47,917 nt of DNA, from IMG/VR virus record IMGVR_UViG_3300031236_000016, positions 1 through 47,917 of that record. One strand, 5' to 3'. A model generated the notes under the pieces. That model worked only from the letters and a program-made list of their open reading frames with translations, did no database searches and was not told the DNA's origin. This DNA is from a virus. Both the position numbers and the translations under genes were made by a program. Within the stretch, counting starts at the first letter, position 1. The number at the start of each line of letters is the position of its first letter. Below are positions 4,649 to 47,917 of the stretch, piece by piece.

Positions 4649-4935
4649 TACTCACCCCACTCCGGAATCTCGACAGTTTGACCTTTCAGCTTATGCCAGG
4701 AATCGGAAAGAAATTGAATCATACCGTCCCTCACAAAACTGTGACATCGGTGAAGATCGTCGTTAGGATTGCAGTTGATTGAAGGACTGAATGTAGGTTT
4801 ATTCATCGATCCATTCCAACTCCATGTTGCTCCTGAAGAATTTCGATGACCATTCACTGTAACAGCATGACCGTACTTACAACCTGGGCAATGAAAAGCT
4901 ACGAATTCCGGCGCGATCTGATGCAGTTTGCTCAT
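4648..4935 (-). CDS. small zinc-binding phage protein (DUF6527-like)
   Basis: A 95-residue protein from ATG 4935, where ATGA overlaps the stop of the upstream gene. It has CPGCKYGHAV near the N-terminus and WSWNG, KPTFSPSI, CHSFVRDG and IQFLSDSWHKLKG. That order matches a widespread phage family often mislabelled ammonia monooxygenase (DUF6527). Cys and His residues suggest a metal site. The function is unknown. Its insertion between connector and terminator genes makes it an accessory gene riding in the late operon. A longer start at 4962 would overlap the upstream gene more and lacks a ribosome site. Confidence 0.68.
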   Translation of the reverse strand: MSKLHQIAPEFVAFHCPGCKYGHAVTVNGHRNSSGATWSWNGSMNKPTFSPSINCNPNDDLHRCHSFVRDGMIQFLSDSWHKLKGQTVEIPEWGE

Positions 4936-5549
4936 TGTTTTCTGATCACCACTTTGGTCCAATCAGACCACGATTCCAAAACCTTTTCAACCAGCCAGGT
5001 TCCTGCGAGCAACTGAGGTACTTTTCGATTCTGAGGTACACCGTTGGAAATCGCAGTGATGATGCCGCTTACACCAATATCGCTCGCTTGAATGTAGACG
5101 TTGACGGCATCGGCGGCCACTGGTTGCCATAAGGCTCCGGGTCCGGTCGCAAGTATCTTCACCTGATCTGGTGTCACTCCCAAGCCATGAGGAACTGAAA
5201 TTACCCCAGTCTGACTGACGGTGACGGGGACGGTAACAGTCTTGCTACGCCCGCTCTTGATGGTGACTATATCCCCACCCTTGCTATCAGTCCGCATCAC
5301 GCCAGCGAGATTGCCGTACATATAGAGCGCTCGCAGAGTGCCTTGGATATTGAGGTTCTCTATCTGCTTGAGGTCGCTTCCATCCAACGCCTGTACCTGC
5401 CCCAGTCCCGTGATGGCTGGATTGTAGACAGGTTGCTGCCGCTGCCCCGCGCCGATGGTATAACCGGCTGATATCTGCAACGTGACGATGATGTTGGGAT
5501 TGACCGTGTTGCTGATTGAGTTGACTATTTGCCGCAACCGTAGAGTCAT
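4932..5549 (-). CDS. head-tail connector / neck protein with inserted HGLG domain
   Basis: A 205-residue neck protein. The N-terminal part (QIVNSISNTVNPN, YTIGAGQRQQPVYNP, DLKQIENLNIQGTLRALYMYG) and the C-terminal part (GTWLVEKVLESWSDWTKV) together look like a normal head-completion or connector protein of about 135 residues. Between them, at residues 99-168, sits a foreign-looking beta module (VPHGLGVTPDQVKI, GALWQPVAADAVNVYI, SDIGVSGI). The same module occurs in the connector at 6239-6946 and three times in the baseplate plug at 45477-46508. The start is supported by GAGGTGA upstream, and it overlaps the next gene by 4 bases. The exact neck position is inferred from gene order. Confidence 0.75.
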   Translation of the reverse strand: MTLRLRQIVNSISNTVNPNIIVTLQISAGYTIGAGQRQQPVYNPAITGLGQVQALDGSDLKQIENLNIQGTLRALYMYGNLAGVMRTDSKGGDIVTIKSGRSKTVTVPVTVSQTGVISVPHGLGVTPDQVKILATGPGALWQPVAADAVNVYIQASDIGVSGIITAISNGVPQNRKVPQLLAGTWLVEKVLESWSDWTKVVIRKQ

Positions 5550-6085: not shown

Positions 6086-6239
6086 TTTCCTCCAAGTAGA
6101 TCGGAATATTGAGGTTCATTTCAATAACCCGAACCGCCGAAACTGTAGGGAACGTAAGTTCGCCGCGGTAAATACGCTCTATATCCTCAAGCAACTCGGA
6201 AGAGTCCATCGTGAGCGTAAATGACTCAGCGCTTGGCAT
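6063..6239 (-). CDS. small neck-region protein, function unknown
   Basis: A 58-residue protein from ATG 6239, beginning MPSAESFTLTMDSSELLED. The ATG overlaps the upstream stop (TAATG), and GAGGGA lies 6-7 nt before it. It has no recognisable motif. The sequence is acidic at the start and ends NIPIYLEENEHPRQR. It sits between the DUF4054-like connector and the gp10-like protein and overlaps the latter, so it is probably co-translated with the neck set. Confidence 0.55.
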   Translation of the reverse strand: MPSAESFTLTMDSSELLEDIERIYRGELTFPTVSAVRVIEMNLNIPIYLEENEHPRQR

Positions 6240-6946
6240 TATCTGATCCCTCGCCCAAACCAATAACCTACCGGTCGAATGGGGTACCCAGGTGAGGGTC
6301 CGGCAGCATAGCGGAATCCCCGCAGGGAACTTGTCGCCTGCCAGAACATCGCGCCATACTGCGACTGAGCGAAGAATGCCGCGCTTGCTGAGCTTCCCAC
6401 GGGATAGTCGAATCCAGCGCTCACCGAACCCTCACTGGCGTTGCTGGTGCGCCCTACAGGCCGCGCCGCACCATTGCCGGCGAGTATCTGCGAATCCTGA
6501 TAGACGTAGACATCGGCGGTGACTCCTACATCCGATCCCTCAAGATATAAATTGAGCGCATCGGCCGCGCTCGCTTGCCAGATGGCCCCCGAACTAGTCA
6601 TCTGAATATCGACGGATGCGGGAACCGCACCGAGGCCATGAGATATGACGAAAGGGCCGGCAGTGGGCGCGGTCACATTGAGCGTGGCAGATGCTGGAGC
6701 TGGTGCGATGGCTACAGCATCCAGATCGCCTTTGAGATAGCTGATGTGAGCCACCAGCATGTTGAGGAAAGTGAGGCGGCGGGTGAGATCGCATACAGGA
6801 CTGTTCGGCGAATTGCTCAAATACAGAGTGGCAAGACTCGTAAAGTACGCCTGAAGTTTGTTTGGATCGACACCTGAGAATTCAGGAAACAGCAATAGGA
6901 ATTGCTGTGAGCTGAAGACTGCTACGCCGCCGCACGCTCCATTCAT
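6239..6946 (-). CDS. DUF4054-like head-tail adaptor with inserted HGLG domain
   Basis: A 235-residue adaptor. The N-terminal part (FLLLFPEFSGVDPNKLQAYF, DLTRRLTFLNMLVAHISYL) and the C-terminal part (GRTSNASEGSVSAGFDYP, SQYGAMFWQATSSLRGFRYA) match DUF4054 connectors, which bind the portal end of the head. Between them, at about residues 84-152, is an inserted beta module (ISHGLGAVPASVDIQM, GAIWQASAADALNLYL, SDVGVTADVYVY). It closely resembles the insert in the 4932-5549 protein and the repeats of the baseplate plug. The start is ATG 6946; GTG 6949 is possible. It overlaps the next upstream gene by one base. Confidence 0.78.
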   Translation of the reverse strand: MNGACGGVAVFSSQQFLLLFPEFSGVDPNKLQAYFTSLATLYLSNSPNSPVCDLTRRLTFLNMLVAHISYLKGDLDAVAIAPAPASATLNVTAPTAGPFVISHGLGAVPASVDIQMTSSGAIWQASAADALNLYLEGSDVGVTADVYVYQDSQILAGNGAARPVGRTSNASEGSVSAGFDYPVGSSASAAFFAQSQYGAMFWQATSSLRGFRYAAGPSPGYPIRPVGYWFGRGIR

Positions 6947-7305
6947 CACTCATCCACCCTTGTCTTGAGATTGTAGTCTTCAGCAACCAGACCTTCCAAT
7001 CCCGTCTTTTCCTTTTCGCGCTCACGATGAACTGCTTCGGCGCGATCCTGAGTTCCGGCCACGAATATGGACCCGGATTTGAGCGGGCCGAAGGGATGAC
7101 GAGCGTTGCTGGTATGTACGGCGTGCCACAATTCCCAGAAGTCCTTGTCAACTTCCGTGGTCATGTACGGCAATTGCACCAGGACTCCGTTGCGACCTCT
7201 AGGCGCACCATTGAGCCCTTTGATAGTGACAGTTTGGGTTGGGTCGATTGGATGTTTGAGGATGAAGCCGAATGGGAGCTTCGATCCGATGGTGATAGTT
7301 TGCAT
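6946..7305 (-). CDS. conserved head-region protein, function unknown
   Basis: A 119-residue protein beginning MQTITIGSKLPFGFIL, with VTIKGLNGAPRG and TEVDKDFWELWHAVH. The last motif is common in a small phage family that lies between major capsid and adaptor genes in contractile phages; its role is not known to me. Shine-Dalgarno GAGGGG is 6 nt before ATG, inside a leader nearly identical to that of the gene at 7374-7616. The C-terminus is highly charged (REREKEKTG). Confidence 0.65.
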   Translation of the reverse strand: MQTITIGSKLPFGFILKHPIDPTQTVTIKGLNGAPRGRNGVLVQLPYMTTEVDKDFWELWHAVHTSNARHPFGPLKSGSIFVAGTQDRAEAVHREREKEKTGLEGLVAEDYNLKTRVDE

Positions 7306-7688: not shown

Positions 7689-8717
7689 TCACACGCCAAG
7701 CATCGAAACGATAAATACTGGACGATAGATGATTGTGCCCCAGGTTCCCTGCGATTTCTTCTGCATGAAGGAACTGAGTTTGATAACTACCGGATGAGCA
7801 CGAAGCTTTTCCGTGAATGCGCAAGATGCAGTCCGGACTCCTTCGACCTCATCGGCGATGAGCTGCAAGCTGTTGCCCGATGCTGTCGTATACTCCGGGG
7901 CCGTCTTGATCTTCATATTCGGGAAGTTCTTCTTGATCCGATCAAAGACGTTGACATTGAAATCGCTGGTGTCAGTGAGCCACGTCTGCGTCTGCGAAGA
8001 CATGGCGAGCGTCATGTTGGTTTCGAGATCGACGAGATTGTTGGTCTGCGATACAAGTTGCTGGTAGAGCAACTGAATGTCGTGCAAAATCTCGTTGGCG
8101 GTGGCCACTGCCCATGCCGTACCGCCCGCCGCCTTGATTGACGGAGATATGGCCGGGAGCAGCGAAGGGTCGTTAAGCAACCCGTAGTTCTCCAGGCCAG
8201 CTATGCCGAAAAAATAGCTCGCATTTTGGAAGAGATTGAGGGTGCTGATGCTAGCTTTGTTCTTGCGGAAAGCCAGATCCACCAGTCCCGCGCCGGCTCG
8301 CGCTACCTCACGCTCACCCCAATTGGTGATCGTCTGATAGTGGTAGCTCTGACGCTGGGGATAATTGATATTGGCGTTGGAGACACCATTCTCCGAGTAA
8401 TCGCCGTAGCTGGATACCTGACCGACATCTTCACCTTCGATGAACATCGCCGTATCGGTGATCCAATCGCCCTTCTTGACTTCCTCACCGACAACCTCGA
8501 CGGCCCGCATGGGCTTGACGAGAATGTCGATAATGCGAGGATCTACGTAGGTGGTGAACATCGCAGGAACACCGGCGTTGCTCGACGTGACGAGCGCGGG
8601 CTGCGCGTCCATAGCCAGGACGTTGCCATTGGAATCAGCCTCAAGGATTGCAGCATTGGGCTGTCCCATGAGGATAATTCCGGCCATTCTTTCGAGAGCG
8701 AGCAGCTCTGGAGTCAT
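7689..8717 (-). CDS. major capsid protein (DUF2184-like, HK97 fold expected)
   Basis: A 342-residue major head protein. Features are MAGIILMGQPNAAIL at the N-terminus, FTTYVDPRIIDILVKPMRA, a central FFGIAGLENYGLLNDP, and the C-terminal SQGTWGTIIYRPVFI, all typical of DUF2184 capsid proteins. VLAMDA at residues 33-38 lies in the likely propeptide region and matches the VAMD motif found in three other head proteins, so residues 1-37 or so may be removed on maturation. Shine-Dalgarno GGGGAA is 7-8 nt before ATG. It sits between the cement protein and a strong terminator. Confidence 0.9.
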   Translation of the reverse strand: MTPELLALERMAGIILMGQPNAAILEADSNGNVLAMDAQPALVTSSNAGVPAMFTTYVDPRIIDILVKPMRAVEVVGEEVKKGDWITDTAMFIEGEDVGQVSSYGDYSENGVSNANINYPQRQSYHYQTITNWGEREVARAGAGLVDLAFRKNKASISTLNLFQNASYFFGIAGLENYGLLNDPSLLPAISPSIKAAGGTAWAVATANEILHDIQLLYQQLVSQTNNLVDLETNMTLAMSSQTQTWLTDTSDFNVNVFDRIKKNFPNMKIKTAPEYTTASGNSLQLIADEVEGVRTASCAFTEKLRAHPVVIKLSSFMQKKSQGTWGTIIYRPVFIVSMLGV

Positions 8718-8751
8718 TGTGATGTTCCCCGCATTCTATGAATTATGTTGC

Positions 8752-9891
8752 TTACTGAGGTTGCCGTGAAATCTTGACCAGACTGCCCACCGCGCCGTCA
8801 TCGACCGAAGTGGGATAAGCAGTCCAACCGGATGCGATGCCACCGGCGGTGGTAAATGCTTCGGTAGCCACGTACTGCGTACCGGGAGCGAATAGTTGAT
8901 ATACCCCAACTCCGCCACCGGAACCGCTGATCTGAGACTCAACGGAAGTGGCCGGGAGATTGGTTCCAGTGATGGGCATCCCGGTTTGCACCGTCCCTGC
9001 CGACACTGTGGCCACCTTGAGTACACTGCCAAAAGTGGTGACGCCGGCCGCCGAAGCGAAGTATGCCGTGCCGGGAGCGGATAGCGTGTAGGTTCCCACG
9101 CCACCCACCGTACCACTCACCTGGGAGGTGACGGTGGTTCCGGCAGGCACGCCGGTGATACCGGCGGTCGTATCGCCAACGCTGATGAGGCCGGTTGATG
9201 CACTCACCACAAGTACGTTGCCGAAAGTGGTAATGGTAGCGGCAGCAGCGGTGTTTGCTTCGTTCAACTCATAGACGCCCGCGCCGCCAGTCGTGCCACT
9301 AATCTGGGAGACAATCTGAGTCCCTACGGGGATGCCCGTACCAGCCACGCTGTCGCCAATGCTCAACACGCCGGTTACCGCGCTGATGGTGATCTGTTCC
9401 GGATTGCCGACAACTGCCGTCCCGGTGCTGGTGCTGCCGAGAGCTGCGGTATTGGTAGAGCCGAGCGAGGCCGTGCCGGTTGCCCCGGCCGGGGCCGAAC
9501 TGTAAGCGCGGCCATCGGCAAAGCCAGCAAACACGCTAGCACCCTTGGTCAGCGCGGCAGGTCCGGCATTCTTGACCCAGAAATCACCACCGTTGCTCAG
9601 ATCCACTTGGAACCCGGCCGGCACCTGAAGCGAGAACTCCTGAAGGTACACTTCGATTAACGCTTGCTGCGCCCGGTGAAGGAAACCATCGGGAGCAACC
9701 GAAGCATCGGCGAACGGATTGGCAGTCATGAAATCGGGAGCAATCCAGTGGAAGCGGCCAACAATGGCCCCTTGCGCACCCGCAACTAGGCCACCGGCCC
9801 CAGCGAGAGTGCTTGAGCGAGGATTGACGCTCGCGGGGTCACCCTCGACTCCTACAGGATTGAACGAATTTACTCGGGTCTGGAAAGGCAT
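8752..9891 (-). CDS. capsid cement/decoration protein with three C-terminal beta repeats
   Basis: A 379-residue protein. The first ~135 residues (VEGDPASVNPRSSTLAG, GGLVAGAQGAIVGRFHW, DGFLHRAQQAL) look like the Gp24-type structural cement family that stabilises capsids. Residues ~166-346 hold three tandem repeats of 55-60 residues sharing L-S-V-G-D, G-T-G-x-P-x-G-T, S-Q-I-S-G-T-x-G-G-x-G-x-Y. This repeat is common on phage surface proteins and may display adhesive or protective modules on the head. AGGGAG precedes ATG. It lies directly before the major capsid gene. Confidence 0.78.
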   Translation of the reverse strand: MPFQTRVNSFNPVGVEGDPASVNPRSSTLAGAGGLVAGAQGAIVGRFHWIAPDFMTANPFADASVAPDGFLHRAQQALIEVYLQEFSLQVPAGFQVDLSNGGDFWVKNAGPAALTKGASVFAGFADGRAYSSAPAGATGTASLGSTNTAALGSTSTGTAVVGNPEQITISAVTGVLSIGDSVAGTGIPVGTQIVSQISGTTGGAGVYELNEANTAAAATITTFGNVLVVSASTGLISVGDTTAGITGVPAGTTVTSQVSGTVGGVGTYTLSAPGTAYFASAAGVTTFGSVLKVATVSAGTVQTGMPITGTNLPATSVESQISGSGGGVGVYQLFAPGTQYVATEAFTTAGGIASGWTAYPTSVDDGAVGSLVKISRQPQ

Positions 9892-9918
9892 TTTATTACT
9901 CCCTAATCTTGACGTTGA

Positions 9919-11196
9919 CTACATGACTCGAATGCGGCCCAAATCCTTGAAGCGCTTCATTGCCGGTGCGGAATCCATCGCCACCGTGGTACGTGCTGGC
10001 GTTGCCGCATGTTTCGCAGCAACTTTGAAGATGGCTCGTTTGGAAGCCAAACCGGGAGCGTCCTTGTGTTCCACCCCCAGATGATCGAGAGCAAAACCGT
10101 AGACAGATTCGGCTGAATCCATCGCCACTACAATCTCGCCAACTACCGGCCGTACATCCCGGCGAGCTTCATCGAGAGCGAGGAAATCGGCACGGACTCC
10201 AGCAATTGCGGCGTCCATCGCGGCTTTCGTAGGCTTATCATCGGGCTTCTCATCCTTTGCTTTGCGGTCCTTTGCTGCCTTCTTGGGCTTTTCCTTGTCT
10301 TCCTCGTCGTCGTAATCCTCATCGGAATCGCGAGCACCCTTGCAATCGGCGCACATGCATCCCTTCGGATGCTCATCGGCGTCTTCAGCAGGCTCTTCCT
10401 TTTCGACATCAGTCATAGCGTCGAATACGGCGATGACTTGCTTTTCGTCGATCTTGGCATCCATCGCAACGATGAGTCCCGCGGCCTTCTTGCGCTCGGT
10501 CGGCGTGAACTTATTGCGGGTGGCTGGGGCCAGCAACTTCTCAAGCTCGCTGCCATCCATTGCGACCTTGACGGCGGGGAAGGCTGTGGTAGCAGCCACG
10601 ATTAGAGCGTTGCCGAGCTTGGAACGTTTCATGCGAGTAATCTCCGGTGATTGATCTGCGGCGAGAACATCGTTCCCAGCCCTGCCCGACTCAACCAAAG
10701 CAAGATGATTGCCTTGAATCTGAGTCATAATACCATCGTAATGCACACCTTGGTAATCACCTGATGTCATTATTGGTACATAACGGTAACTGCAAGAGAA
10801 CTCTCGTACTCGATCCGTCTCGATTCCAGCGATGGCGTTAACGTCCCAGATGGTCGTATCGGCATCCAGGTAGGGATCGAGAAATTCAACATTGCTGCCG
10901 GTCGATCCGACAATGTGCTGCTTTTTCTCCTGCTCGCTCATCCCGTCAAAATCGGTGACAAATACGTGCTTATTGAGGATCGGCAACATCCTGAAGGTAT
11001 CGGCCGCCCGCGCCAGCTCTTCGGGATCACGCAGCATCCAATAAGCACGATCCCGATCAAGCCCGAGCGCTTCCCACTGAGGGATTTCGCGGCCATAGTA
11101 TTTATTGACGCTGGCCTTGGTGATGTGCGAACGAGCGATATGCAGACGGCCATCTGCCGTATACGTCCGCATTGTCGAGTCTAGGGCGAGAATCAC
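9919..11196 (-). CDS. prohead maturation protease fused to scaffold (DUF2213-like)
   Basis: A 425-residue protein. The N-terminal third fits DUF2213: MRTYTADGRLHIARSHITKA, YYGREIP, LNKHVFVTDFDG, and IQGNHLALVESGRAG, where Ser170 with His77 or His164 are candidate catalytic residues. The C-terminal ~235 residues are rich in Glu, Asp and Lys (DEDYDDEEDKEK), as expected for an internal scaffold, and contain a CMCADC cluster at 280-285. VAMD occurs at 211, 243, 357 and 405, with AAMD at 325, suggesting self-cleavage sites. The start is GTG 11196 without Shine-Dalgarno; TATATT lies exactly 6 nt upstream. The gene is cut off from the Mu-F-like gene by the plus-strand cassette. Confidence 0.82.
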   Translation of the reverse strand: MILALDSTMRTYTADGRLHIARSHITKASVNKYYGREIPQWEALGLDRDRAYWMLRDPEELARAADTFRMLPILNKHVFVTDFDGMSEQEKKQHIVGSTGSNVEFLDPYLDADTTIWDVNAIAGIETDRVREFSCSYRYVPIMTSGDYQGVHYDGIMTQIQGNHLALVESGRAGNDVLAADQSPEITRMKRSKLGNALIVAATTAFPAVKVAMDGSELEKLLAPATRNKFTPTERKKAAGLIVAMDAKIDEKQVIAVFDAMTDVEKEEPAEDADEHPKGCMCADCKGARDSDEDYDDEEDKEKPKKAAKDRKAKDEKPDDKPTKAAMDAAIAGVRADFLALDEARRDVRPVVGEIVVAMDSAESVYGFALDHLGVEHKDAPGLASKRAIFKVAAKHAATPARTTVAMDSAPAMKRFKDLGRIRVM

Positions 11197-11202
11197 CGTT
11201 CA

Positions 11203-11223
11203 AATATAGCAAAATGCATTTTG
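11203..11223 (-). promoter_or_regulatory. putative leaderless late promoter and palindromic operator
   Basis: On the minus strand TATATT (11208-11203) stands 6 nt before GTG 11196, so transcription would start at the codon itself. Directly upstream is a perfect 14-bp palindrome, CAAAATGCATTTTG (11210-11223), in the -35/-10 spacer region. There is no TTGACA-like -35, which suggests activator dependence. Inferred from sequence only. Confidence 0.5.
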
Positions 11224-11236
11224 ATAAAAATATCAG

Positions 11237-11293
11237 TTGACACACTACGAGTAGTGTGAGAGGATAAAGGAGTAGCAAAGAACTCTCGGAGGA
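11237..11293 (+). promoter_or_regulatory. operator-bearing promoter of the plus-strand cassette (copy 1)
   Basis: TTGACA at 11237-11242 is followed by an 18-bp palindrome (CACACTAC-GA-GTAGTGTG, 11241-11258), then GAGGATAAAGG and CTCGGAGGA before ATG 11301. The palindrome lies where a repressor would block polymerase. The -10 is poorly defined (AGGATA or GGATAA). A near-copy (52 of 57 bases identical) lies at 19532-19588. Confidence 0.72.
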
Positions 11294-11300
11294 TACGTAA

Positions 11301-11564
11301 ATGAATCAGGATCGCACACTCCCTCTCAGCAATCAGCCAATCTACTACATCAACCAGTTTTCCCTTGGTATGACGCGCCATAGCCTCGGGGAGATCATTG
11401 CAGACCTAGCAGATTACACGGGTGACGAGTATCTGCATATCTTTGAGGATGGGCCATGCGGAACTCGCATCGTTTACCGTGGATTCGCCTCCAAGATCAT
11501 CTCTGAGTATCGGTTTGAGCAGGATTACATGGGCATCGCGACTTCCAACCTCGGCAACAAATAA
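11301..11564 (+). CDS. small accessory protein, function unknown
   Basis: An 87-residue protein, first gene of the plus-strand cassette, with CTCGGAGGA 7 nt before ATG. It has mixed helix and strand (HSLGEIIADLADY, YLHIFEDGPCGTRIVYRGF) and no recognised motif. It follows the operator-bearing promoter, so it is probably expressed from it, opposite to the surrounding head genes. Confidence 0.62.
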   Translation: MNQDRTLPLSNQPIYYINQFSLGMTRHSLGEIIADLADYTGDEYLHIFEDGPCGTRIVYRGFASKIISEYRFEQDYMGIATSNLGNK

Positions 11565-11579
11565 CTCTCGGAGGAGATT

Positions 11580-11804
11580 ATGACCAACACCGAGTTCCAC
11601 AACACCTTTTACGGACCCAGTAATCAATTAAACCGAGAAAGACTATGTCGGCATCTCGAAATTACAGGATTCGCGGGGCTCAACCTGAAGCGTATGGGAT
11701 GGACCGGATTTATCAACGCGCTCGGTGACCACTATAAACTTGATGTCCGCAACTTCACTTGCCAGGCTAAATTTATCGACGCGCTTGCGGACATGCTGAA
11801 ATGA
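11580..11804 (+). CDS. small accessory protein, function unknown
   Basis: A 74-residue protein that begins MTNTEFHNTFYGPSN and ends DALADMLK, with basic and aromatic residues and no recognised domain. CTCGGAGGAG is 5 nt before ATG. It lies 15 bases after the previous gene in the same orientation, so it is probably the second gene of the cassette transcript. Confidence 0.6.
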   Translation: MTNTEFHNTFYGPSNQLNRERLCRHLEITGFAGLNLKRMGWTGFINALGDHYKLDVRNFTCQAKFIDALADMLK

Positions 11805-11833
11805 AATCCAATTAACCCATCTCGGAGGAGATT

Positions 11834-12022
11834 ATGACCAATATCAATCTTTGGACTGCACTAGCAATCGCACTCGCAGCCCTCACCTTGTACTTCTTCC
11901 CCTTCCTGGTTGCATGGGTTCGCCATCACCGCCAAATCGCCGCCATCTTCTGGACCAAATTTTTCTTCGGTTGGACCGGAATCGGATGGTGCATCAGCTT
12001 TATCTGGGCGGTGATTCGGTGA
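11834..12022 (+). CDS. superinfection immunity-type membrane protein
   Basis: A 62-residue membrane protein with two hydrophobic segments: LAIALAALTLYFFPFLVAW, and WTKFFFGWTGIGWCISFIWA. A short basic loop (RHHRQ) lies between them. The second segment matches the F-x-G-W-T-x-I-G-W signature of the superinfection-immunity family (related to T4 Imm), which blocks DNA entry by later phages at the inner membrane. Shine-Dalgarno CTCGGAGGAG precedes ATG. Being in a separate cassette with its own promoter fits expression early or outside the late phase. Family assignment is by motif; the exclusion role in this phage is inferred. Confidence 0.78.
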   Translation: MTNINLWTALAIALAALTLYFFPFLVAWVRHHRQIAAIFWTKFFFGWTGIGWCISFIWAVIR

Positions 12023-12108
12023 ACAACCAGTTCGAAGAAAGGTTCGTATGGCCAGCCTTAATTGTGTGCATAATAGCAGCCTGCCTTCTGATCCTGATGT
12101 TCCCATAA
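12019..12108 (+). CDS. very small membrane peptide
   Basis: A 29-residue reading frame whose GTG start overlaps the stop of the superinfection gene (GTGA). After a charged head (NNQFEERF) it has one hydrophobic segment (WPALIVCIIAACLLILMF). Likely translationally coupled and possibly a partner of the immunity protein. No Shine-Dalgarno of its own. A longer overlapping frame (12048-12230) competes for this space. Confidence 0.42.
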   Translation: MNNQFEERFVWPALIVCIIAACLLILMFP

Positions 12109-12195
12109 GGTACCTGCTATCAGGCGTACCGATTCCGCCAATCCTTCTCTTCAGTAGGGAAGCTGAGGATTCCAACCGCAAATTGGAGGCTTTAG

Positions 12196-12384
12196 GTGAT
12201 AACGCAAGATGGATTCCTGTCGCTGATTAACCATGCCGCCGAACTGCTACAGATACCAGATCCCAAGGCGGCTTATCTATTTTTCAGACCGATGAGTCTA
12301 TACGATGAAGTTTCAGAGCAATGGTATAGATTAGGTTGGTCTATATCAACACCTTCAACCCCGGAATCCAACTCTATGAGGTGA
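12196..12384 (+). CDS. small accessory protein, function unknown
   Basis: A 62-residue protein starting at GTG 12196 with GGAGG 6 nt upstream. It contains GFLSLINHAAELLQIP and SLYDEVSEQWYRLGW and has no recognised domain. Its last codons lie in a 33-bp stretch that repeats the 3' end of the convergent Mu-F-like gene, so the C-terminus probably arose by recombination. Confidence 0.55.
   Translation: MITQDGFLSLINHAAELLQIPDPKAAYLFFRPMSLYDEVSEQWYRLGWSISTPSTPESNSMR
12341..12373. repeat. displaced copy of the 3' end of the Mu-F-like gene
   Basis: Read on the minus strand these 33 bases match 28 of 33 bases of 12577-12609, the last ten codons and stop of the Mu-F-like gene. They even keep an in-phase stop (S-W-I-P-G-L-K-V-L-I-stop against S-R-I-P-G-L-K-L-L-G-stop). 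The core 12347-12373 matches 25 of 27. The two copies flank the small gene at 12389-12580. Confidence 0.85.
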
Positions 12385-12388
12385 TCAC

Positions 12389-12580
12389 ATGATTGGTAAC
12401 GAAACGCCTTGCTCAAACAATGCGATTGGTCTCGTTCAATCCTTAGAAAATGGCAAAATTCGCCCACTATGTGAACAACACTACGTCGAAGAACAAGAAA
12501 ATTTGCAACAATACAAAAGTGAAAAATTTCATAATAAAAGTGGAATTCCTTGTTGGTGGGGAAACAGAGAACCTCGCTAA
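12389..12580 (+). CDS. small Cys-containing accessory protein, function unknown
   Basis: A 63-residue protein with GAGG 7-8 nt before ATG. It begins MIGNETPCSNNAIG and has IRPLCEQHYVEEQENL and a terminal IPCWWGNREPR. The spaced Cys and His residues (PC, LCEQH, PCWW) suggest a small metal-binding fold. Its stop overlaps the stop of the convergent Mu-F-like gene, and the gene is flanked by the duplicated Mu-F 3' end, so it looks like a recently gained gene. Confidence 0.55.
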   Translation: MIGNETPCSNNAIGLVQSLENGKIRPLCEQHYVEEQENLQQYKSEKFHNKSGIPCWWGNREPR

Positions 12581-13398
12581 CCCAACAACTTCAACCCCGG
12601 AATCCGACTGATAGAAATACAGCGGCAGAAGGGTTTCTCCCCAGGATTGATGAACTCAATCTGACCCTTCTCATTCTTGATCGGGCAGCCGTCGCGCACC
12701 TTATATACGCGGCCGGTTGCCCGCTGGTGCTCCACCCGTGGATGCTTGCCTGCCCCACTATGCCGCCACTCGGCCTCTTCAATTCCCAACTCCAGCCGAC
12801 GGGCGCGCTCAATGACGGCATTTGCCTTGTTGCTTTGATCCAGTGCGATAAATGCAGCTCGCCGGCGCGTCACCCCGCCGATACGCATGAGGTCGGCTAC
12901 CATCACGTCCAACCCTTTACCCTGCGAGTAGGCGCGGGAAAATGCGCCCTGCACCTGACCCAGATATTGCTCGGGGATACTCTTGATGAGTCCGATGTTC
13001 TCGGCTAATGATGCGTTGAATGCATCGGTCACTGGCGCAGTCATTTGAAATTTGACTGTGAATCCGATGTCCCGAAGAGCCATCATCATCGCCGTATCCG
13101 TAGCGGCCCGTTGGCGCTTGAGATAGGCTTTGGCGATCTTTGGACCGGCCTTATCAAAGCGCTTCAACCATCGCTTACGAAGTTCATCGAAGCGCTTGAT
13201 CATCTGCTGTGACGGCGTGGCATCCATCGCTACCGGGGGTGCTTCACGATACTGAGCCTGAAGCCAATAGATAATGCTCGCCGTCATATCGTCTATGACG
13301 GCGAGCATCTGTTTCTGATAACGCTGACGGAGGCCGGCGTTAGCTCGAATCGGTCTGAGCTTAGTGGCCAATGGCGAACCACGTCTGGTTGGTAACAC
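12577..13398 (-). CDS. Mu gpF-like head morphogenesis protein
   Basis: A 273-residue minor head protein. The C-terminal half carries the Mu-F signature: DLMRIGGVTRRRAAFIALDQSNKA, then ARRLELGIEEAEWRHSGAGKHPRVEHQ, RVYKVRDGC, and NPGEKPFCRC at the end. Such proteins act in early prohead assembly near the portal. VAMDA at residues 56-60 follows APP and matches motifs in portal, protease and capsid, so removal of the first ~58 residues is plausible. The start is uncertain: GTG 13398 gives a 38-base overlap with the upstream gene, TTG 13371 is the alternative, and neither has a clear Shine-Dalgarno. Confidence 0.82.
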   Translation of the reverse strand: MLPTRRGSPLATKLRPIRANAGLRQRYQKQMLAVIDDMTASIIYWLQAQYREAPPVAMDATPSQQMIKRFDELRKRWLKRFDKAGPKIAKAYLKRQRAATDTAMMMALRDIGFTVKFQMTAPVTDAFNASLAENIGLIKSIPEQYLGQVQGAFSRAYSQGKGLDVMVADLMRIGGVTRRRAAFIALDQSNKANAVIERARRLELGIEEAEWRHSGAGKHPRVEHQRATGRVYKVRDGCPIKNEKGQIEFINPGEKPFCRCISISRIPGLKLLG

Positions 13399-13945
13399 CG
13401 TTGTTACGCAACGTTAATTGAGTAGTTGTGCAAATTACCCCGCCCGTAGGAACGATGAGCGTTTCTTGAGCTTGCGTTCCTGAGTCCTGGTATTGGCCAG
13501 TTTGAGCCCATAGACAACCATTCGGAAAGGTCAAAGGGAACGTCACAGTTTGAGGTCCGGTATCGAAATCCCCAGTCGTTCCCCATTCCAAAATCAACCC
13601 GTCCCCGAGAGTCTGAAAGCCGCTCGTTCCGGTAAACGCTGGACCAGCCACCGTAGCGGTCACGCGGCCTTGAGCATCTGTAGTAATGGACGTAGGGAGT
13701 AGCGTCGTCCCCGGAGTCCCTACGTTGGGCAGGGAAGCATTCGGAAGAGTGGTAGCATCCACGTACTGCGAACCGTTGCCCACCAGCAGATGATTGGCCG
13801 GGGCTGCTCCTGCGAACTCATAGCCCGTGACCGAGTTGATGAATCCGCTGGCGGTGACGTTGGCGAATATCCCATTGACTGCCCCCATCATCGCAACGCA
13901 GATGAACGCCGCAATCATTCCGATAGCAAACTGTCGTTTACGCAT
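13361..13945 (-). CDS. fibre-type protein with N-terminal signal segment and gp53-like C-terminal domain
   Basis: A 194-residue protein from ATG 13945. Residues 1-30 look like a Sec signal or membrane anchor (basic RKRQ, then FAIGMIAAFICVAMMGAV). The middle is fibre-like (GTTLLPTSITTDAQGRVTAT). The C-terminal ~85 residues (GDGLILEWGTTGDF, VTFPLTFPNGC, WFAIGH) match the tail-fibre gp53-like C-terminal domain, usually a receptor-binding or trimerisation tip. Its position among portal and head genes and its leader are odd for a fibre. It may be a head fibre or an exported protein. It overlaps genes on both sides. GTG 13948 is an alternative start. Confidence 0.68.
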   Translation of the reverse strand: MRKRQFAIGMIAAFICVAMMGAVNGIFANVTASGFINSVTGYEFAGAAPANHLLVGNGSQYVDATTLPNASLPNVGTPGTTLLPTSITTDAQGRVTATVAGPAFTGTSGFQTLGDGLILEWGTTGDFDTGPQTVTFPLTFPNGCLWAQTGQYQDSGTQAQETLIVPTGGVICTTTQLTLRNNGVTNQTWFAIGH

Positions 13946-14099
13946 CACGCCCTACTTTCTCCAGGTACACCCGTTGGCCAACCTCGTCTATCATTTCCAT
14001 CAGCAAGTTCCCGTCCCCACATTCGGCTAAGGCGATCAGTCCGCACAAAAATAGCGGGTTTGCTCCGTTGCGCATGGCATCTTCAATCTCTTCAGGCAT
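13938..14099 (-). CDS. small head-region protein, function unknown
   Basis: A 53-residue protein from ATG 14099, which overlaps the last codons of the portal. GGAG lies 6 nt upstream. It begins MPEEIEDAMRNGANPLFL and contains LIALAECGDGN and MIDEVGQRVYLE. It looks helical and acidic, with no recognised motif. Longer starts at 14105, 14111 or 14153 lie in the portal C-terminus. It is probably co-translated with the portal. Confidence 0.55.
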   Translation of the reverse strand: MPEEIEDAMRNGANPLFLCGLIALAECGDGNLLMEMIDEVGQRVYLEKVGRDA

Positions 14100-15567
14100 C
14101 GTCATCTCCATCTCCCTCAGCATCATTATCACCTTCAGGGACTTCAGTGACATTCAATCCTTCGTAACCGCTGTCCGGGTTACGTGCGAGCTTTTCGCGC
14201 ACCTCTTCCGGCGAGAGTACTTGCCGATCAAGGTAGGCAGCATCTCGGTCGGCATCCGTCTTGCGCAGTTCCGCCTCTTCCTTCGGCGTCATCTGATAGA
14301 GCGGTTCCCAATTGACTGTGATGTTGGGATCAATCTTGCCGTAGCGGATGAGCTGGATGATTTCCAGCACTCGCACCACGATCCAATTCCAATCGCGATA
14401 TTGCAGCGAGCGCACCCAGTCGAAGAACGCCCTAATCTCACCTTCCGCCAGATTGCCGAAGCCGGTCGGAGAAATACCAAGCAAGATGACGGCGGGAATG
14501 TGACTGACGGAGCACATCTGCTCCTGGGATTGAGCCTGAAGAGCATCAAGGCCGCCCAGAGGCACATTCTGAATGACAAGCTCTTCGCGATCCTTATCCA
14601 TCGCCCCAATGCCCTTGTTATTGCGGGTGAGCGTGAAGTAATCCAGTCGATCCCTTAGGCTTGCTCCATCGTCAGTTCCGTTAAGAACTTGCGACATGTC
14701 GGTCATCAGCATCAAAACGGAAAAATTGTTGATCAGATCGGAAACGCTTCCCACGGTTCGCAACCATCGGTCAACGTATGGTTCTGCGAGTTGACTCATG
14801 CTCATCCCGCCGAAATTGAAAGCGGGCTTGAGCATGTCGGTAACTGGGCGCGTTACGACGGTCAAGAGACGATCAGCATGGATGCGGCGGCCAAGCATGA
14901 ACCATCCGACCGGCTTATAAAAATCATCTCGCGTAGGATCGTCGGCATTATAGACGCTCGGAGTCGTCCACATTGCCTCGACCGCCTTGACGCGGAAGTA
15001 TTTGGTGATCTTCTCATCCTCACCGATACTTTCTTTCTTGATTGTCTTCGGGGTGAGGAGGAGTGGGGTATCGCGAATTTGGTCGGAACTTTGGCTGCGA
15101 ATGTCGAGGAATATTTGAGCGCGCCCATAGAAGCTATCGTGATCGCACATCGTCGCGATGACTTCCTTTAGGCCGATGTCTTTCATATCCTGCTCAAGTT
15201 GACTGATGACCTCTTTGGTAGCGTCGTCGTCGGTATTTGTCGAACCCAACTTGAGCCATTCTCGGGTGAGATTGTTGCTCATCGCCTGCGCAAACATGCG
15301 ATATTCAGCTCGCGTCGAAAGCATCGATAGGTAGGGGTAACCGGGGAATCCGACAAATTCGGTCCCACCCCAACCCTGACTAACAGAGTAGTTGTAGCCG
15401 TAGGAATCCATTGCTACCGGAGCTTGAGTGTCGGCAGGCACTACGCCTGCGGCCAGTACGGGAGCTTGGACTGGGTAGGCGTAGCTCTTCTCTGGTTTGG
15501 CGTCCATGCGAGCCTTTAGGACGGCGCGGCGCATTCCATCCTTCGGTTCCGGGTTGCGAGTCGGCAT
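14092..15567 (-). CDS. portal protein (DUF1073 type)
   Basis: A 491-residue portal, the dodecameric DNA channel at one head vertex. Typical elements of the DUF1073 portal family are YPYLSMLSTRAEYRMFAQ, LTREWLKL, DHDSFYGRAQIFL, SYKP-like FYKPVGWFML, RPVTDMLKPAFNFGGMSMSQ and HIPAVILLGISPTGFG-N. The start is ATG 15567, with no Shine-Dalgarno but CATAAT exactly 6 nt before it. VAMDS at residues 51-55 follows an Ala/Pro-rich leader and matches the putative maturation motif in three other head proteins. The C-terminus is very acidic. It lies 69 bases after terL. Confidence 0.9.
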   Translation of the reverse strand: MPTRNPEPKDGMRRAVLKARMDAKPEKSYAYPVQAPVLAAGVVPADTQAPVAMDSYGYNYSVSQGWGGTEFVGFPGYPYLSMLSTRAEYRMFAQAMSNNLTREWLKLGSTNTDDDATKEVISQLEQDMKDIGLKEVIATMCDHDSFYGRAQIFLDIRSQSSDQIRDTPLLLTPKTIKKESIGEDEKITKYFRVKAVEAMWTTPSVYNADDPTRDDFYKPVGWFMLGRRIHADRLLTVVTRPVTDMLKPAFNFGGMSMSQLAEPYVDRWLRTVGSVSDLINNFSVLMLMTDMSQVLNGTDDGASLRDRLDYFTLTRNNKGIGAMDKDREELVIQNVPLGGLDALQAQSQEQMCSVSHIPAVILLGISPTGFGNLAEGEIRAFFDWVRSLQYRDWNWIVVRVLEIIQLIRYGKIDPNITVNWEPLYQMTPKEEAELRKTDADRDAAYLDRQVLSPEEVREKLARNPDSGYEGLNVTEVPEGDNDAEGDGDDDA

Positions 15568-15636: not shown

Positions 15637-17133
15637 TTATCTTACACTTCCGGCGGCGCGGGCCATTGCAGCTCCACTGATGGCTATTCGCCCGAAAAGC
15701 GGATACAACCGGCGCAGCGCCATAGTAAAACTATCCACCTGATCGTCATTTGCAACTGATCCTGGGCCGCTGAATCGCGTCACTTCGGCTAGCCATGTTC
15801 CCGGCAGATGTTGGCCGCCGGCAGATCCAATCCACTCTGCGACATCGGGATGCGGCAGCCACACGTTCATCGCTTCCCATACGCTGGTAACCGCATGAGC
15901 GCGGGCCGTCTTTGATCCATCGGGTTCGACGGGGATGAGACCGAACACCTTCATCTTCAGGAAGTCGATTACGGCCGGCCCGTTGGCTTTATCCTCGATC
16001 AGAACCTCGCGAGATATGAGTCCTCCCCATGTCCGGAGCACCTCAACCTGCCTGGCGGTCTCAGTGAATCCCATCTGCCCTCGGATCTGATGTAGAAGGT
16101 AGCAATAAGCACCCTTCTTACCCCACTTCTGGCCGACAACATAGTCCGATCCATCGGTATCCTTGAAAGTGCAATCCCATGAGTCGATGATGAGATCGAA
16201 GCTCTTCGGCAGCATTTTGGGCAGATAGAACTGAATGCCGGTAACTTTGAAGATGCTGCCACCAAGAGGATGGGGGCTCTGCTGATACACCGCAGAGAAC
16301 CAAAACTCGGAAGTGGTAGCTTTTCTTTCCCTCAAAAGTTCTTCGCTCTTGAGATCGGGAACCAAAGCGCCTTTGGGGAGCTTCGGGTTGTATCCGGTCT
16401 CATTCGGATAGTTGAGAGCAGGGAAGCGCAACACCGTCAGACGATGACGGTGCTCAGGTTTGCTATACATCGCTTCGATTCGAGCAGGCAAATCGTCTTC
16501 AGCCCATGAAGTGGCCATAACGATCTCACCGCTATATTCACTAAGACGAGCCATGAACTCTGCTTGATACCAATTCCAATGACTTTCTTTAGTTACCTCA
16601 CTTAGTGCCTCTTTCTGACCCTTTGTAGGATCGTCAATAATCCCGATATTGATAGTTTTACCGGCAATACCTGCTGTAATGCCAGTACTGAAATAGCTTC
16701 CGTTTCCATAAGGAGAATTAAAGAAATTGATGGTTGATCGATCAAATTTATCTTTAGGTTTAATATTCGGAAAGAGACGTTTATGTTTCGTGCTCGTTAA
16801 ATTGCGTCGAACCCATTGAGCCATTCCGTTAGCTAAGTCCGAATCATAAGATGCCGTGCCGATAAGCCATTCGGGACAGGTAGACATCAAGAACGCTGGC
16901 AACTTACGGCTCACCATCTCTGACTTACCGTGCTGCGGAGGAGCTTTGAGAATCAACACTGGGCGTATACCAGCATTCACATCGTTGATGAATTTAGTGA
17001 TCGCTCGGCACACCGCTTCACTGAAAGCACTTGTCTTGAAATGAGGGGACGTATAGGTGATGTAATCGTGCAGATGTAGCCGCGCTCGCCGGCGGTGCTG
17101 CAATTCTTTGAGCAACTCTGAGCGCGCGATCAT
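15637..17133 (-). CDS. terL: terminase large subunit
   Basis: A 498-residue packaging motor and DNA-cleaving enzyme. The ATPase part has Walker A APPQHGKS (64-71), Walker B IIDDP (165-169) and a coupling motif MATSW (206-210). The RNase H-like nuclease part has acidic residues in DSWDCTFKDTDGSD (317-330), EDKANG (380-385) and DDQVDS (463-468). It docks on the portal and cuts concatemeric DNA. Length is normal. There is no Shine-Dalgarno before ATG 17133, but TATAGT (17145-17140) lies exactly 6 nt upstream, suggesting a leaderless message. Portal follows, and terS lies upstream. Confidence 0.95.
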   Translation of the reverse strand: MIARSELLKELQHRRRARLHLHDYITYTSPHFKTSAFSEAVCRAITKFINDVNAGIRPVLILKAPPQHGKSEMVSRKLPAFLMSTCPEWLIGTASYDSDLANGMAQWVRRNLTSTKHKRLFPNIKPKDKFDRSTINFFNSPYGNGSYFSTGITAGIAGKTINIGIIDDPTKGQKEALSEVTKESHWNWYQAEFMARLSEYSGEIVMATSWAEDDLPARIEAMYSKPEHRHRLTVLRFPALNYPNETGYNPKLPKGALVPDLKSEELLRERKATTSEFWFSAVYQQSPHPLGGSIFKVTGIQFYLPKMLPKSFDLIIDSWDCTFKDTDGSDYVVGQKWGKKGAYCYLLHQIRGQMGFTETARQVEVLRTWGGLISREVLIEDKANGPAVIDFLKMKVFGLIPVEPDGSKTARAHAVTSVWEAMNVWLPHPDVAEWIGSAGGQHLPGTWLAEVTRFSGPGSVANDDQVDSFTMALRRLYPLFGRIAISGAAMARAAGSVR

Positions 17134-19865: not shown

Positions 19866-20621
19866 ATGCTCGCATTTCACAATAATCCTGCTATCAAAGA
19901 AAAATACCTCGCTCGCGTCCGCGCTCACCGCGTCGCCGATGAAATCGTAAAGGGCCGATATTGGGAAAACGGTAAAGGCTGCGCTGTCGGATGTACCCTT
20001 CATTCCGGCAAGCACATGAGTTACGAAAGCGAACTTGGAATTCCAGTCGCTCTCGCTCATCTTGAAGATACGATCTTCGAGAATCTGCCAAACGAGTTAG
20101 CTCTCGAATGGCCGGCTCGATTTCTTGAAGCGGCGCATCCCGGTGCCGATCTAAGCAACGTCGTAAATCAATTCATGAGTTGGATGCTTATTGATCCCAC
20201 TCATGGAGTCATTCGATTCGTCAATACTGACATGGATCGTTCGGCCATCATAGGTGTTGCTGCAATTCTTCGGACCGACGCTACCGCCGAAGAAATTGAA
20301 AAGGCACTATCGGCGGACTCGGCGGCGGACTCGGCGGCGGCACTCTCGGCGGCACTCTCGGCGCGCTCGGCGGCACTCTCGGCGTACTCGGCGGCGGACT
20401 CGGCGGCGGCACTCTCGGCGGCGTGCTCGGTGGCGGACTCGGTGGACTCGGCGGCGGACTCGGCGCGCTCGGCGGCGGCGGCACGCTCGGCGGCACGCTC
20501 GGCGGTGGACTCGGCGCGCTCGGCGGCACTCTCGGCGGACTCGGCGGCGTACTCGGCGGCGGACTCGGCTTACATTTCTTTCTCCGATAAGCTAATTGAG
20601 TTGATGAGTATCGCCAGATGA
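19866..20621 (+). CDS. conserved phage protein with Ala/Ser repeat tail
   Basis: A 251-residue protein. The N-terminal ~145 residues (FHNNPAIKEKYLARVRAHRV, KGRYWENGKGCAVGCTLHSG, ELGIPVALAHLEDTIFE) look like a conserved phage protein of unknown role that I have seen in other phages. From about residue 149 to 235 the sequence consists of A-x-S-A units (DSAADSA, ALSARSA, AYSAADSA), probably a long alanine-rich helix. It ends ISFSDKLIELMSIAR. CGGAGGA precedes ATG. It overlaps the next gene by 4 bases. Confidence 0.7.
   Translation: MLAFHNNPAIKEKYLARVRAHRVADEIVKGRYWENGKGCAVGCTLHSGKHMSYESELGIPVALAHLEDTIFENLPNELALEWPARFLEAAHPGADLSNVVNQFMSWMLIDPTHGVIRFVNTDMDRSAIIGVAAILRTDATAEEIEKALSADSAADSAAALSAALSARSAALSAYSAADSAAALSAACSVADSVDSAADSARSAAAARSAARSAVDSARSAALSADSAAYSAADSAYISFSDKLIELMSIAR
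20310..20569 (+). repeat. imperfect 9/12-bp coding repeat (GGCGGxxTC type)
   Basis: About 260 bases of near-repeating CTCGGCGGACTCGGCGG-like units, encoding A-x-S-A peptides in frame. Unit length changes by whole codons, so the frame is kept. Only a few positions vary (Asp, Leu, Arg, Tyr, Cys, Val), a pattern that slippage or recombination can easily expand and contract. Confidence 0.9.
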
Positions 20622-45476: not shown

Positions 45477-46508
45477 TTATGCATAGACAGAAATGAGTGC
45501 GGTCAGGCCCGTATCTGAAGCGTCCAGATAGACGTTTGTTGCGTCGAAAGCTGGCGTCTGAGCGATAATCTGACCGCCCGAAAGCATGAAAATGTTTATG
45601 CGACTCGGGGAGGCCAACAGTCCGTGAGGAACCGTAAGCAATCCGGGGTCACTTGAAGTCACTGTCAATACTGTAGCTGAATCCGTGATGTTTATGGCGG
45701 TGTTGACCATTTGGAACACGGTTATTTTGGCAGTCACTCCGGCCCCGGTAGCCGTAAAGTACACATTGGAATCGTCAGCAGATGAGGATTGCCATATGCA
45801 ACCGAAGGATGTTGGCAGAATCTCAATCAGGCTGGGGACGAATCCGAGCCCATGCGGGACCGCGAACTGCACGCCGGCACTCGGGGCATTGACTGCAAGA
45901 CTGGCCGCTGGAGGTTGGACTGGCGGCGCGATGCGAGTGACTTCAGATTGAGCTGGAGGCCGGTAGACAAAGATCATTGCGGTAACGCCCACGTCCGAGC
46001 CCACCAGATAAATGTTGGTGTTGTCGGCAAAGAAGGTCTGCCCCCAGATAGCCCCCGGCGATGTGGGCACAATCTCCAGCACGGTAGGTATGCCTACGAT
46101 GCCGTGAGGGACGCTGAAGTCCCCACCGTTGGGTGATGTGACCAGAAGTACCGCTTCGAGCTGTAGGACATTGGGGATTCCGACTGCGGCGAAGGCGGTC
46201 TCAAGCACCTCGGCGGCCGTCAGATAGACAAGCATCCATCTGGAATTCAGGCCAGTGTATACGGGATCATCGAAGCCTTGAGTATCTAAGAAATATAGAT
46301 TTCCTTGGAAGCCATCGTAGGAATTGGCGGCATCTAGCGGGACTGCATTTAGAGCAATGCATCCGATGCACATATCGACGCCATTGGAATTGATATCCAC
46401 GTAGAGGTTTTGATTGCGCAGGTAAATATTGATCTGACAATTCTGCCCTCCGAGCACGCAGAGAACTATCTGATTTGGGACCGCCTGAATTGGGATAGTC
46501 TGCGCCAT
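45477..46508 (-). CDS. baseplate plug protein (Pam3 gp18-like) with three HGLG domains
   Basis: A 343-residue protein. The first ~100 residues (PIQAVPNQIVLCVLGGQNCQ, INIYLRNQNLYVDINSNGVD, GFQGNLYFLDTQGFDDPVY, LNSRWMLVYL) look like the plug domain of cyanophage Pam3-type baseplates, normally the whole protein. Then come three tandem copies of a ~65-residue domain at 118-182, 203-265 and 277-342 with P-H-G-L-x-x-x-P, I-W, and S-D-x-G-V-T-A-x-I-x-V-Y. The same domain is inserted in two neck proteins. AAGGTGA precedes ATG. Confidence 0.8.
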   Translation of the reverse strand: MAQTIPIQAVPNQIVLCVLGGQNCQINIYLRNQNLYVDINSNGVDMCIGCIALNAVPLDAANSYDGFQGNLYFLDTQGFDDPVYTGLNSRWMLVYLTAAEVLETAFAAVGIPNVLQLEAVLLVTSPNGGDFSVPHGIVGIPTVLEIVPTSPGAIWGQTFFADNTNIYLVGSDVGVTAMIFVYRPPAQSEVTRIAPPVQPPAASLAVNAPSAGVQFAVPHGLGFVPSLIEILPTSFGCIWQSSSADDSNVYFTATGAGVTAKITVFQMVNTAINITDSATVLTVTSSDPGLLTVPHGLLASPSRINIFMLSGGQIIAQTPAFDATNVYLDASDTGLTALISVYA

Positions 46509-47168: not shown

Positions 47169-47917
47169 TATGGCACCATCCCATAGTTGGCTTGAGAAGC
47201 AAACAAATAATCCAGTTCTCTCGCCAAATCCTGAGTAATACCGACCGCATCGGTAGCTTGCGTGTTGATGGTGATGCTCTCGATATTCACGCTGCGACTG
47301 TTGCTCACGCTCTGAGGCGTAGAGCCAGCGCCAGGAGCAGGGGCGGCAGAGGATGCACCTGGGATGCCATTGAGCGTTTGCGCGAACGTGCCGCGCTTGT
47401 TGGCTTCGCCCACGGCATCCTGAGGTCGCTCATACGCTCGCGATACAGTGGAGCCTGATCCGTAAGCGGTAGTTTGTTTCTTAAGCAAGTCGCCTGCGTT
47501 TTTATAGCTCCCTTGAGTCAGTTCATATTGCACAAATGCCAACTGCTCACCCACTGATGATTCGCGAATGTCTTTACCTGACCATTTTTTGAAAGCAGCT
47601 TGTCGATCGGGATGCCACTGGGCGAGACCGAACGCTTGCCCGTTATCTCCAACCGCGTTCGGTTTACCTCCGCTCTCGGCAACGAGATTGGCCACGATGC
47701 CGGCAGCTTGCTCTTTGCTCCAACCTCGTTTTTGAAAGTAATCCATCGCACGTTCTTTGAACTGACCGCCGGCATTCGCAGATATGGGTTTCCGAGGATC
47801 TAGAACCCCAAGAGGGTCGCGAGGAGCGAACTGTTCGGCTTCATCGCGCTTAATGACATCCCAAATCTTGCCGAGCTTTTCAATGGGAGCTATATTTGGG
47901 TCATTCAATACGCCGCC
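47168..47917 (-). CDS. tape measure protein, C-terminal part with tail lysozyme domain (runs off the window)
   Basis: The frame is open to base 47917 (250 codons). A phage tail lysozyme-type domain is present: AMDYFQKRGWSKEQAAGIVA, then NLVAESGG with the likely catalytic Glu, AFGLAQWHPDRQAAFKKWSG, and EQLAFVQYELTQGSYKNAG. The final ~50 residues are an Ala/Ser/Pro linker and SVNIESITINTQATDAVGIT, as in tape-measure C-termini. It would open peptidoglycan during DNA entry. The N-terminal part is at 1-1040. Confidence 0.85.
   Translation of the reverse strand, partial: GGVLNDPNIAPIEKLGKIWDVIKRDEAEQFAPRDPLGVLDPRKPISANAGGQFKERAMDYFQKRGWSKEQAAGIVANLVAESGGKPNAVGDNGQAFGLAQWHPDRQAAFKKWSGKDIRESSVGEQLAFVQYELTQGSYKNAGDLLKKQTTAYGSGSTVSRAYERPQDAVGEANKRGTFAQTLNGIPGASSAAPAPGAGSTPQSVSNSRSVNIESITINTQATDAVGITQDLARELDYLFASQANYGMVP

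Follow-up and report, generated by a model that had tools for sequence, protein, structure and literature searches.

The 47,917-base virus record IMGVR_UViG_3300031236_000016 (the window, meaning the whole stretch analyzed) carries on its minus strand a set of head genes in which the portal protein, a Mu gpF-like head morphogenesis protein (gpF), a DUF2213 protein, and the major capsid protein share the short motif A-x-D. The DUF2213 protein is very probably a protease-scaffold fusion that cuts after the Asp residue of this motif in the capsid protein, in the portal protein, in gpF, and in itself. The capsid cut has been shown at AMD↓S (the arrow marks the scissile bond) in a homologue, phage KPP12. 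We infer that in this virus the DUF2213 protein is the enzyme, with H77, S134, and H164 as its triad, and that the portal protein, gpF, and the scaffold are cut.

Motif Sites in the Head Proteins

Eight [VILA]AMD sequences occur in the 1531 residues of the portal, gpF, DUF2213, and capsid proteins, and none occurs in the 11,922 residues encoded by the 37 other genes of the window. In 2000 shuffles of the four head proteins, such sequences averaged 0.15 and never exceeded 3. A preliminary description of this DNA had placed VAMD, LAMD, or AAMD at residue 51 of the portal protein, 56 of gpF, 34 of the capsid protein, and 211, 243, 325, 357, and 405 of the DUF2213 protein, and all eight positions are exact. 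It had not noticed the full motif in tail or replication proteins, in agreement with the counts above, and the two other sequences that it named (GAMDK at portal residue 321 and RAMDY at positions 47738-47752) are the sole further xAMDx sequences in a six-frame scan. The shared motif is therefore real, but the strict form VAMD is too narrow and A-x-D↓[A/S] describes the sites better. P2 may be M, Q, F, L, N, E, or another residue, and P1′ is mostly A, S, or G. The DUF2213 protein contains candidate sites beyond those described earlier, namely LALD6↓S, LAAD181↓Q, LALD342↓E, and several A-[KRE]-D sequences in its acidic stretch.

Cleavage of the portal protein is predicted after D54 (VAMD↓S), which would remove a 54-residue leader and reduce the protein from 55.3 to 49.5 kDa. 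The predicted cut in the capsid protein is after D37 (LAMD↓A; 37.3 to 33.5 kDa) and that in gpF is after D59. The decoration protein, which has no AMD site, is predicted to remain uncut and is an internal control.

The Capsid Cut in Pbunavirus Relatives

The virion form of the KPP12 capsid protein, ORF23, has the Edman N-terminus SNFTAPVTT, as given in a figure legend (Fukuda et al. 2012, PMC3474789). The ORF23 gene encodes ...FRSGSAMD↓SNFTAP..., and the first virion residue is residue 65, directly after AMD. The decoration protein on the same gel retained its initiator Met and had the N-terminus MFQKQVYRQYTPGFPGDLIE (PMC3474789). The preliminary description had expected virion head proteins to begin at or near the AMD site, and according to the legend the KPP12 capsid protein begins exactly there. 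Where the KPP12 paper gives these N-terminal sequences, they served gene identification only (PMC3474789).

KPP12 ORF21 is a DUF2213 protein (E 1.4e-33). Profiles built from viral contigs and the window family, with Pbunavirus rows left out, and searched with the database size set to 100,000, matched the putative KPP12 protease with an E of 3.6e-23 and the capsid protein with an E of 4.8e-37. In the profile alignment AMDAQ of the window pairs with AMDSN of KPP12, and two C-terminal scaffold motifs pair too. Judged by these profile matches, KPP12 is a true homologue. The window DUF2213 protein alone matched Pa193 gp24 with an E of 5.7e-9, and the window capsid protein is homologous to the solved capsid proteins of Pa193 and E217.

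The electron cryo-microscopy models of the E217 and Pa193 capsid proteins begin at residue 66, one residue after the KPP12 start. The E217 authors considered the first 65 capsid residues to be either cleaved or disordered, and both structure papers left N-terminal cleavage open. Residues 1-93 of the Pa193 portal protein are absent from the map and from liquid chromatography-mass spectrometry (LC-MS); the E217 portal protein carries SVAMD72↓S.

We also considered whether fragment 286-326 of Pa193 gp24 is bounded directly by A-x-D sites and rejected this, the nearest E217 sites being D214 and D357. By these site positions the fragment falls inside one inter-site segment, and its ends are not those that the code would give.

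Conservation of the Code

The sample comprised 32 viral-contig loci and the head regions of 14 named phages, to which E217, KPP12, and seven distant DUF2213 phages were later added. In homologous loci the same four places have [VILM]-A-x-D with A, S, or G as the next residue, even where the flanks and the spacing differ. In gpF, for example, the site reads VAMDA, LAQDA, IAEDA, LAHDA, VAMDG, or FAMDA, with linkers of differing length. All 30 portal leaders and all 34 capsid leaders contain A-x-D, and so do 30 of the 33 gpF regions (about 12 each after shuffling), as expected of the cleavage code proposed in the preliminary description. The longer pattern [VILMFA]A.D[SAGT] was observed 21 times in portal leaders (1.8 after shuffling), 26 times in gpF (1.2), 35 times in capsid leaders (1.5), and 121 times in the scaffold (14.2), and was depleted in the mature portions of these proteins (12 against 18.7 expected).

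When 1600 gapped dipeptides were ranked by how many of 15 independent loci (capsid identity <65%) had them in all four regions, A.D came first (12 loci, against a mean of 0.6 and a maximum of 4 in 1000 shuffles). The test is not blind because the four regions were drawn around reported sites. At 43 leader sites, where the search pattern fixed P3 as Ala and P1 as Asp, P4 was L, I, V, or M in 35, P2 was Met in 29 with Gln next, and P1′ was Ala in 21, Ser in nine, and Gly in six. In the capsid alignment A35 is invariant and D37 is at least 90% conserved; the downstream sequence QPxLVT is conserved too. One simple rule, A-x-D, would predict cut sites in many phages.

Further afield the code is relaxed or absent. 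KLEP17-4 has the forms GMD↓S and TQD↓A, and the capsid N-termini of the distant DUF2213 phages XT34, MR15, and S-CBS4 contain no matching motif, so A-x-D is not a code of all DUF2213 phages. The open-access literature yielded no description of a prohead code of the A-x-D kind, which is weak evidence of absence and leaves priority uncertain.

Could the code be cut in the capsid protein only, the portal and gpF motifs being inherited, unprocessed sequence? In favor of this explanation, direct N-terminal data come solely from the capsid protein. Nevertheless, changes in flanks, spacing, and P2 have left the gpF and portal motifs in place, and residues 1-93 of the Pa193 portal protein were not found by LC-MS. 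We consider a capsid-only cut unlikely.

Two observations were made on other phages in the course of these comparisons. Agrobacterium phage 7-7-1, in which major capsid protein residues 1-164 are not resolved, was examined as a second structural case and set aside, its protease being of the HK97-type Peptidase_U35 family and not of the DUF2213 family. A 2.7-kb coding sequence on the minus strand (7965-10700) of the Aeromonas phage vB_AsaM-56 record is annotated over plus-strand DUF2213, decoration, and capsid genes and is probably a misannotation.

The DUF2213 Protein as a Candidate Protease

The DUF2213 protein consists of a peptidase domain (residues ∼10-176) and an acidic, mostly helical scaffold (residues ∼182-425). 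The PF09979 profile spans residues 10-181 and phrog_2229 spans residues 3-415. H77, S134, and H164, which form a candidate triad, do not vary across an alignment of 30 sequences with identities as low as 21%; in the same alignment D181, D360, and D408 are the invariant ones among the motif Asp residues. AlphaFold2 (AF2) models were calculated from alignments built from the window and the viral-contig loci only. The predicted local distance difference test score (pLDDT) was mostly ∼90 in the peptidase domain, which is followed by helices split by low-confidence linkers. The top eight matches of a Foldseek search against the PDB were the proteases of Kaposi's sarcoma-associated herpesvirus (KSHV), human cytomegalovirus (HCMV), and pseudorabies virus, together with T4 gp21, at a best E of 0.003 and a template modeling score of at most 0.42 for a model that included the flexible scaffold. 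The matches support, but do not prove, a herpesvirus-type His-Ser-His protease. A PDB hmmsearch with alignment A1 was set aside as not independent, the E217 homologue being one of the A1 sequences, and no conclusion was drawn from the AF2 model of the capsid protein because its mean pLDDT was 53.7.

It is also quite unlikely that another protease, either of the host or an unrecognized one of the phage, makes the cuts and that the DUF2213 protein is a scaffold only. The Pa193 authors term their homologue a putative scaffolding protein, the word protease being absent from their text, and the proteolytic activity of DUF2213 is a prediction. Against a pure scaffold stand the phrog_2229 annotation, the invariance of H77, S134, and H164, the herpesvirus and T4 capsid proteases among its fold matches, and the code sites within the DUF2213 protein itself.

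In Burkholderia, DUF2213 has been reported, in BCAM1066, to be a putatively essential domain of bacteria (PMC8770471). Should BCAM1066 belong to a prophage, as membership of a head protease family suggests, its growth effect may be prophage-related.

Proposed Maturation Pathway

In the pathway that we propose, the acidic scaffold region would carry the DUF2213 protease into the prohead, where the protease would become active and cut after Asp at [VILM]-A-x-D↓[A/S/G] (P4-P3-P2-P1↓P1′). The portal protein, gpF, and the capsid protein would lose N-terminal leaders of ∼54, ∼59, and ∼37 residues, respectively. The protease would chop its own scaffold at D181, D214, D246, D328, D360, and D408 and possibly at more sites, giving peptides that could exit before DNA packaging. 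The decoration protein, without an AMD site, would bind uncut; its intact N-terminus has been shown in KPP12.

The notion of a common maturation-cleavage motif in the preliminary description is thus supported, by the KPP12 cut for the capsid protein; for the portal protein and gpF the cuts are those that we infer from the conserved sites. It is very unlikely that AMD is instead a docking motif, binding head proteins to the scaffold or protease without being the scissile site. Docking motifs would likewise lie in the leaders and be repeated in the scaffold, but the bond directly after AMD is the one cut in KPP12, and the motif is depleted in mature parts. Descent or fold alone, with the motif a part of folded N-arms that has no processing role, would account for the conservation of capsid QPxLVT as well, but is extremely improbable, since the code is common to four protein families that are not related to each other and also occurs in a scaffold whose linkers are predicted with low confidence, A.D is in all four regions of far more independent loci than expected (12 of 15 against 0.6), and the Edman N-terminus of KPP12 contradicts it for the capsid protein.

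Several points weigh against cleavage of all four proteins by the DUF2213 protein. The only cut placed experimentally is that of the capsid protein, and it was placed in a distant homologue (25% identity) and not in this virus. Three of the 33 gpF regions have no A-x-D, and P3 Ala is not absolute because the capsid proteins of the distant phages WFH and FoX6 carry V-G-D↓A. To these are added the low Foldseek scores and the choice of regions in the A.D ranking.

A wider proposal is more doubtful, and we offer it tentatively: that an Asp-at-P1 code read by DUF2213 fusions is common to the window group, Obolenskvirus, Bcep781-like phages, Xanthomonas phages, and Pbunaviruses, and that it sets which scaffold fragments are made, some being kept in the mature head (e.g. 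the Pa193 gp24 286-326 pin at the five-fold vertices).

Head Gene Module and Other Features of the Window

Coordinates of the head genes and of the motif sites are given in Table 1. The minus-strand order is terminase-like, portal, gpF, DUF2213, decoration, and capsid; from the portal gene to the capsid gene it is matched in named phages. The gene at 15637-17133 (minus strand) is designated large-terminase-like from gene order and sequence.

Table 1. Head genes and A-x-D sites of the window
Feature	Coordinates	Strand	Basis
Portal protein (Phage_portal_3), 491 residues	14092..15567	-	Pfam PF06381, E 1.4e-60
Mu gpF-like head morphogenesis protein, 273 residues	12577..13398	-	Pfam PF04233, E 2.5e-8; phrog_324, E 5.1e-69
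DUF2213 protein, 425 residues	9919..11196	-	PF09979, E 4.9e-43; phrog_2229 head maturation protease, E 2.3e-107
Decoration/minor head protein	8752..9891	-	PF23982 (XM1 gp53 family), E 7.3e-19; phrog_2122 minor head protein
Major capsid protein, 342 residues	7689..8717	-	phrog_264 major head protein, E 3.5e-74
Portal VAMD, residues 51-54, P1′ Ser55	15406..15417	-	Sequence scan; homologous leaders
gpF VAMD, residues 56-59, P1′ Ala60	13222..13233	-	Scan; A-x-D in homologues despite variable spacing
Capsid LAMD, residues 34-37, P1′ Ala38	8607..8618	-	A35 invariant, D37 at least 90% conserved; aligned with KPP12 AMD↓S
DUF2213 LALD↓S candidate, residues 3-6, just ahead of peptidase domain	11179..11190	-	D6 kept in at least 90% of rows
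DUF2213 LAAD↓Q candidate, residues 178-181, peptidase-scaffold junction	10654..10665	-	D181 invariant (30 sequences); pLDDT <50 at 182-189
DUF2213 scaffold VAMD↓G, residues 211-214	10555..10566	-	Sequence scan
DUF2213 scaffold VAMD↓A, residues 243-246	10459..10470	-	Homologue column mostly AMD
DUF2213 scaffold AAMD↓A, residues 325-328	10213..10224	-	Scan and alignment
DUF2213 LALD↓E, residues 339-342, weak candidate inside predicted helix	10171..10182	-	Scan and AF2
DUF2213 scaffold VAMD↓S, residues 357-360	10117..10128	-	D360 invariant; KPP12 equivalent RAMD↓S
DUF2213 VAMD↓S, residues 405-408, near C-terminus	9973..9984	-	D408 invariant; KPP12 equivalent KAQD↓S

Between the portal and gpF genes, and overlapping the gpF start, lies a 195-residue open frame (13361-13948) with a hydrophobic N-terminus, which is outside the usual head module. 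The decoration protein has 379 residues and is ∼220 residues longer than its ∼160-residue homologues, the extension containing repeats of the type GVPAGTTVTSQVSGTVGGVGTYTLSAPGT.

Elsewhere in the window, a unit of ∼50 residues, VPHGLG..P..V.I...S.GA.WQ..AADA.N.Y....D.GV.A.I, is found in three minus-strand genes (4932-5549, 6239-6949, and 45477-46508), with several copies in the last, and is a repeat domain shared by what are likely virion proteins. On the plus strand, the C-terminal half (20254-20621) of a 251-residue gene product (gene 19866-20621) is a long Ala/Ser/Asp low-complexity repeat (SAADSAALSA...), and another frame of the same segment is an Arg-rich open frame.

Comparison with Known Systems

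If the proposal holds, DUF2213, which is uncharacterized in Pfam, gains a function whose substrates can be recognized by a simple rule. The rule would allow the start of the mature capsid, portal, and gpF proteins to be predicted for many phages, among them therapeutic phages of Pseudomonas and Acinetobacter.

Among solved structures, those that match the predicted peptidase domain best, at weak scores, are T4 gp21 and the herpesvirus assemblins (KSHV, HCMV), which are capsid maturation proteases acting inside the prohead. Herpesvirus-type proteases have a His-Ser-His triad, and the invariant H77, S134, and H164 suggest a similar triad in the DUF2213 protein. The cleavage code is different, P1 being Glu in T4 and the herpesvirus site being Ala↓Ser.

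The window shares the decoration family PF23982 with Vibrio phage XM1, although XM1 was not among the decoration-family matches listed. In XM1, 30 N-terminal capsid residues are missing from the map and cleavage was suspected; the protease was only guessed at and the scaffold was unidentified in that paper (PMC10457771).

The heads of the Pbunaviruses KPP12, E217, and Pa193 have the same order of DUF2213, decoration, and capsid genes, and the AMD↓S capsid cut is Edman-verified in KPP12. They differ from the window in their T=9 head, 65-kb genomes, capsid protein (25% identical), and portal protein with a long C-terminal extension. The question raised by the E217 and Pa193 structures, whether the N-termini are cleaved or merely disordered, is answered at least for the capsid protein.

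The closest parallel in the code itself is gp245 of SPN3US, a phiKZ-type giant phage of Salmonella, which is described as cutting after A-X-E, with Val favored at P4 and Ser at P1′ (PMC10052503). In both systems several head proteins, including the portal protein, the capsid protein, and the protease itself, share one short code with Ala at P3, a free P2, a hydrophobic residue or Val at P4, and a small residue such as Ser at P1′. The SPN3US cut sites were placed by mass spectrometry, whereas ours are placed mostly by prediction, and a scaffold fusion such as that of the DUF2213 protein is not seen for gp245 in the cited description. The A-x-D code would thus work like the SPN3US system but departs from it at P1, which is Asp at the aligned capsid, portal, and gpF sites and at the KPP12 cut, and Glu in SPN3US. 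An Asp-P1 protease beside a Glu-P1 protease with an otherwise identical code would form a well-matched pair for work on site selection by prohead proteases.

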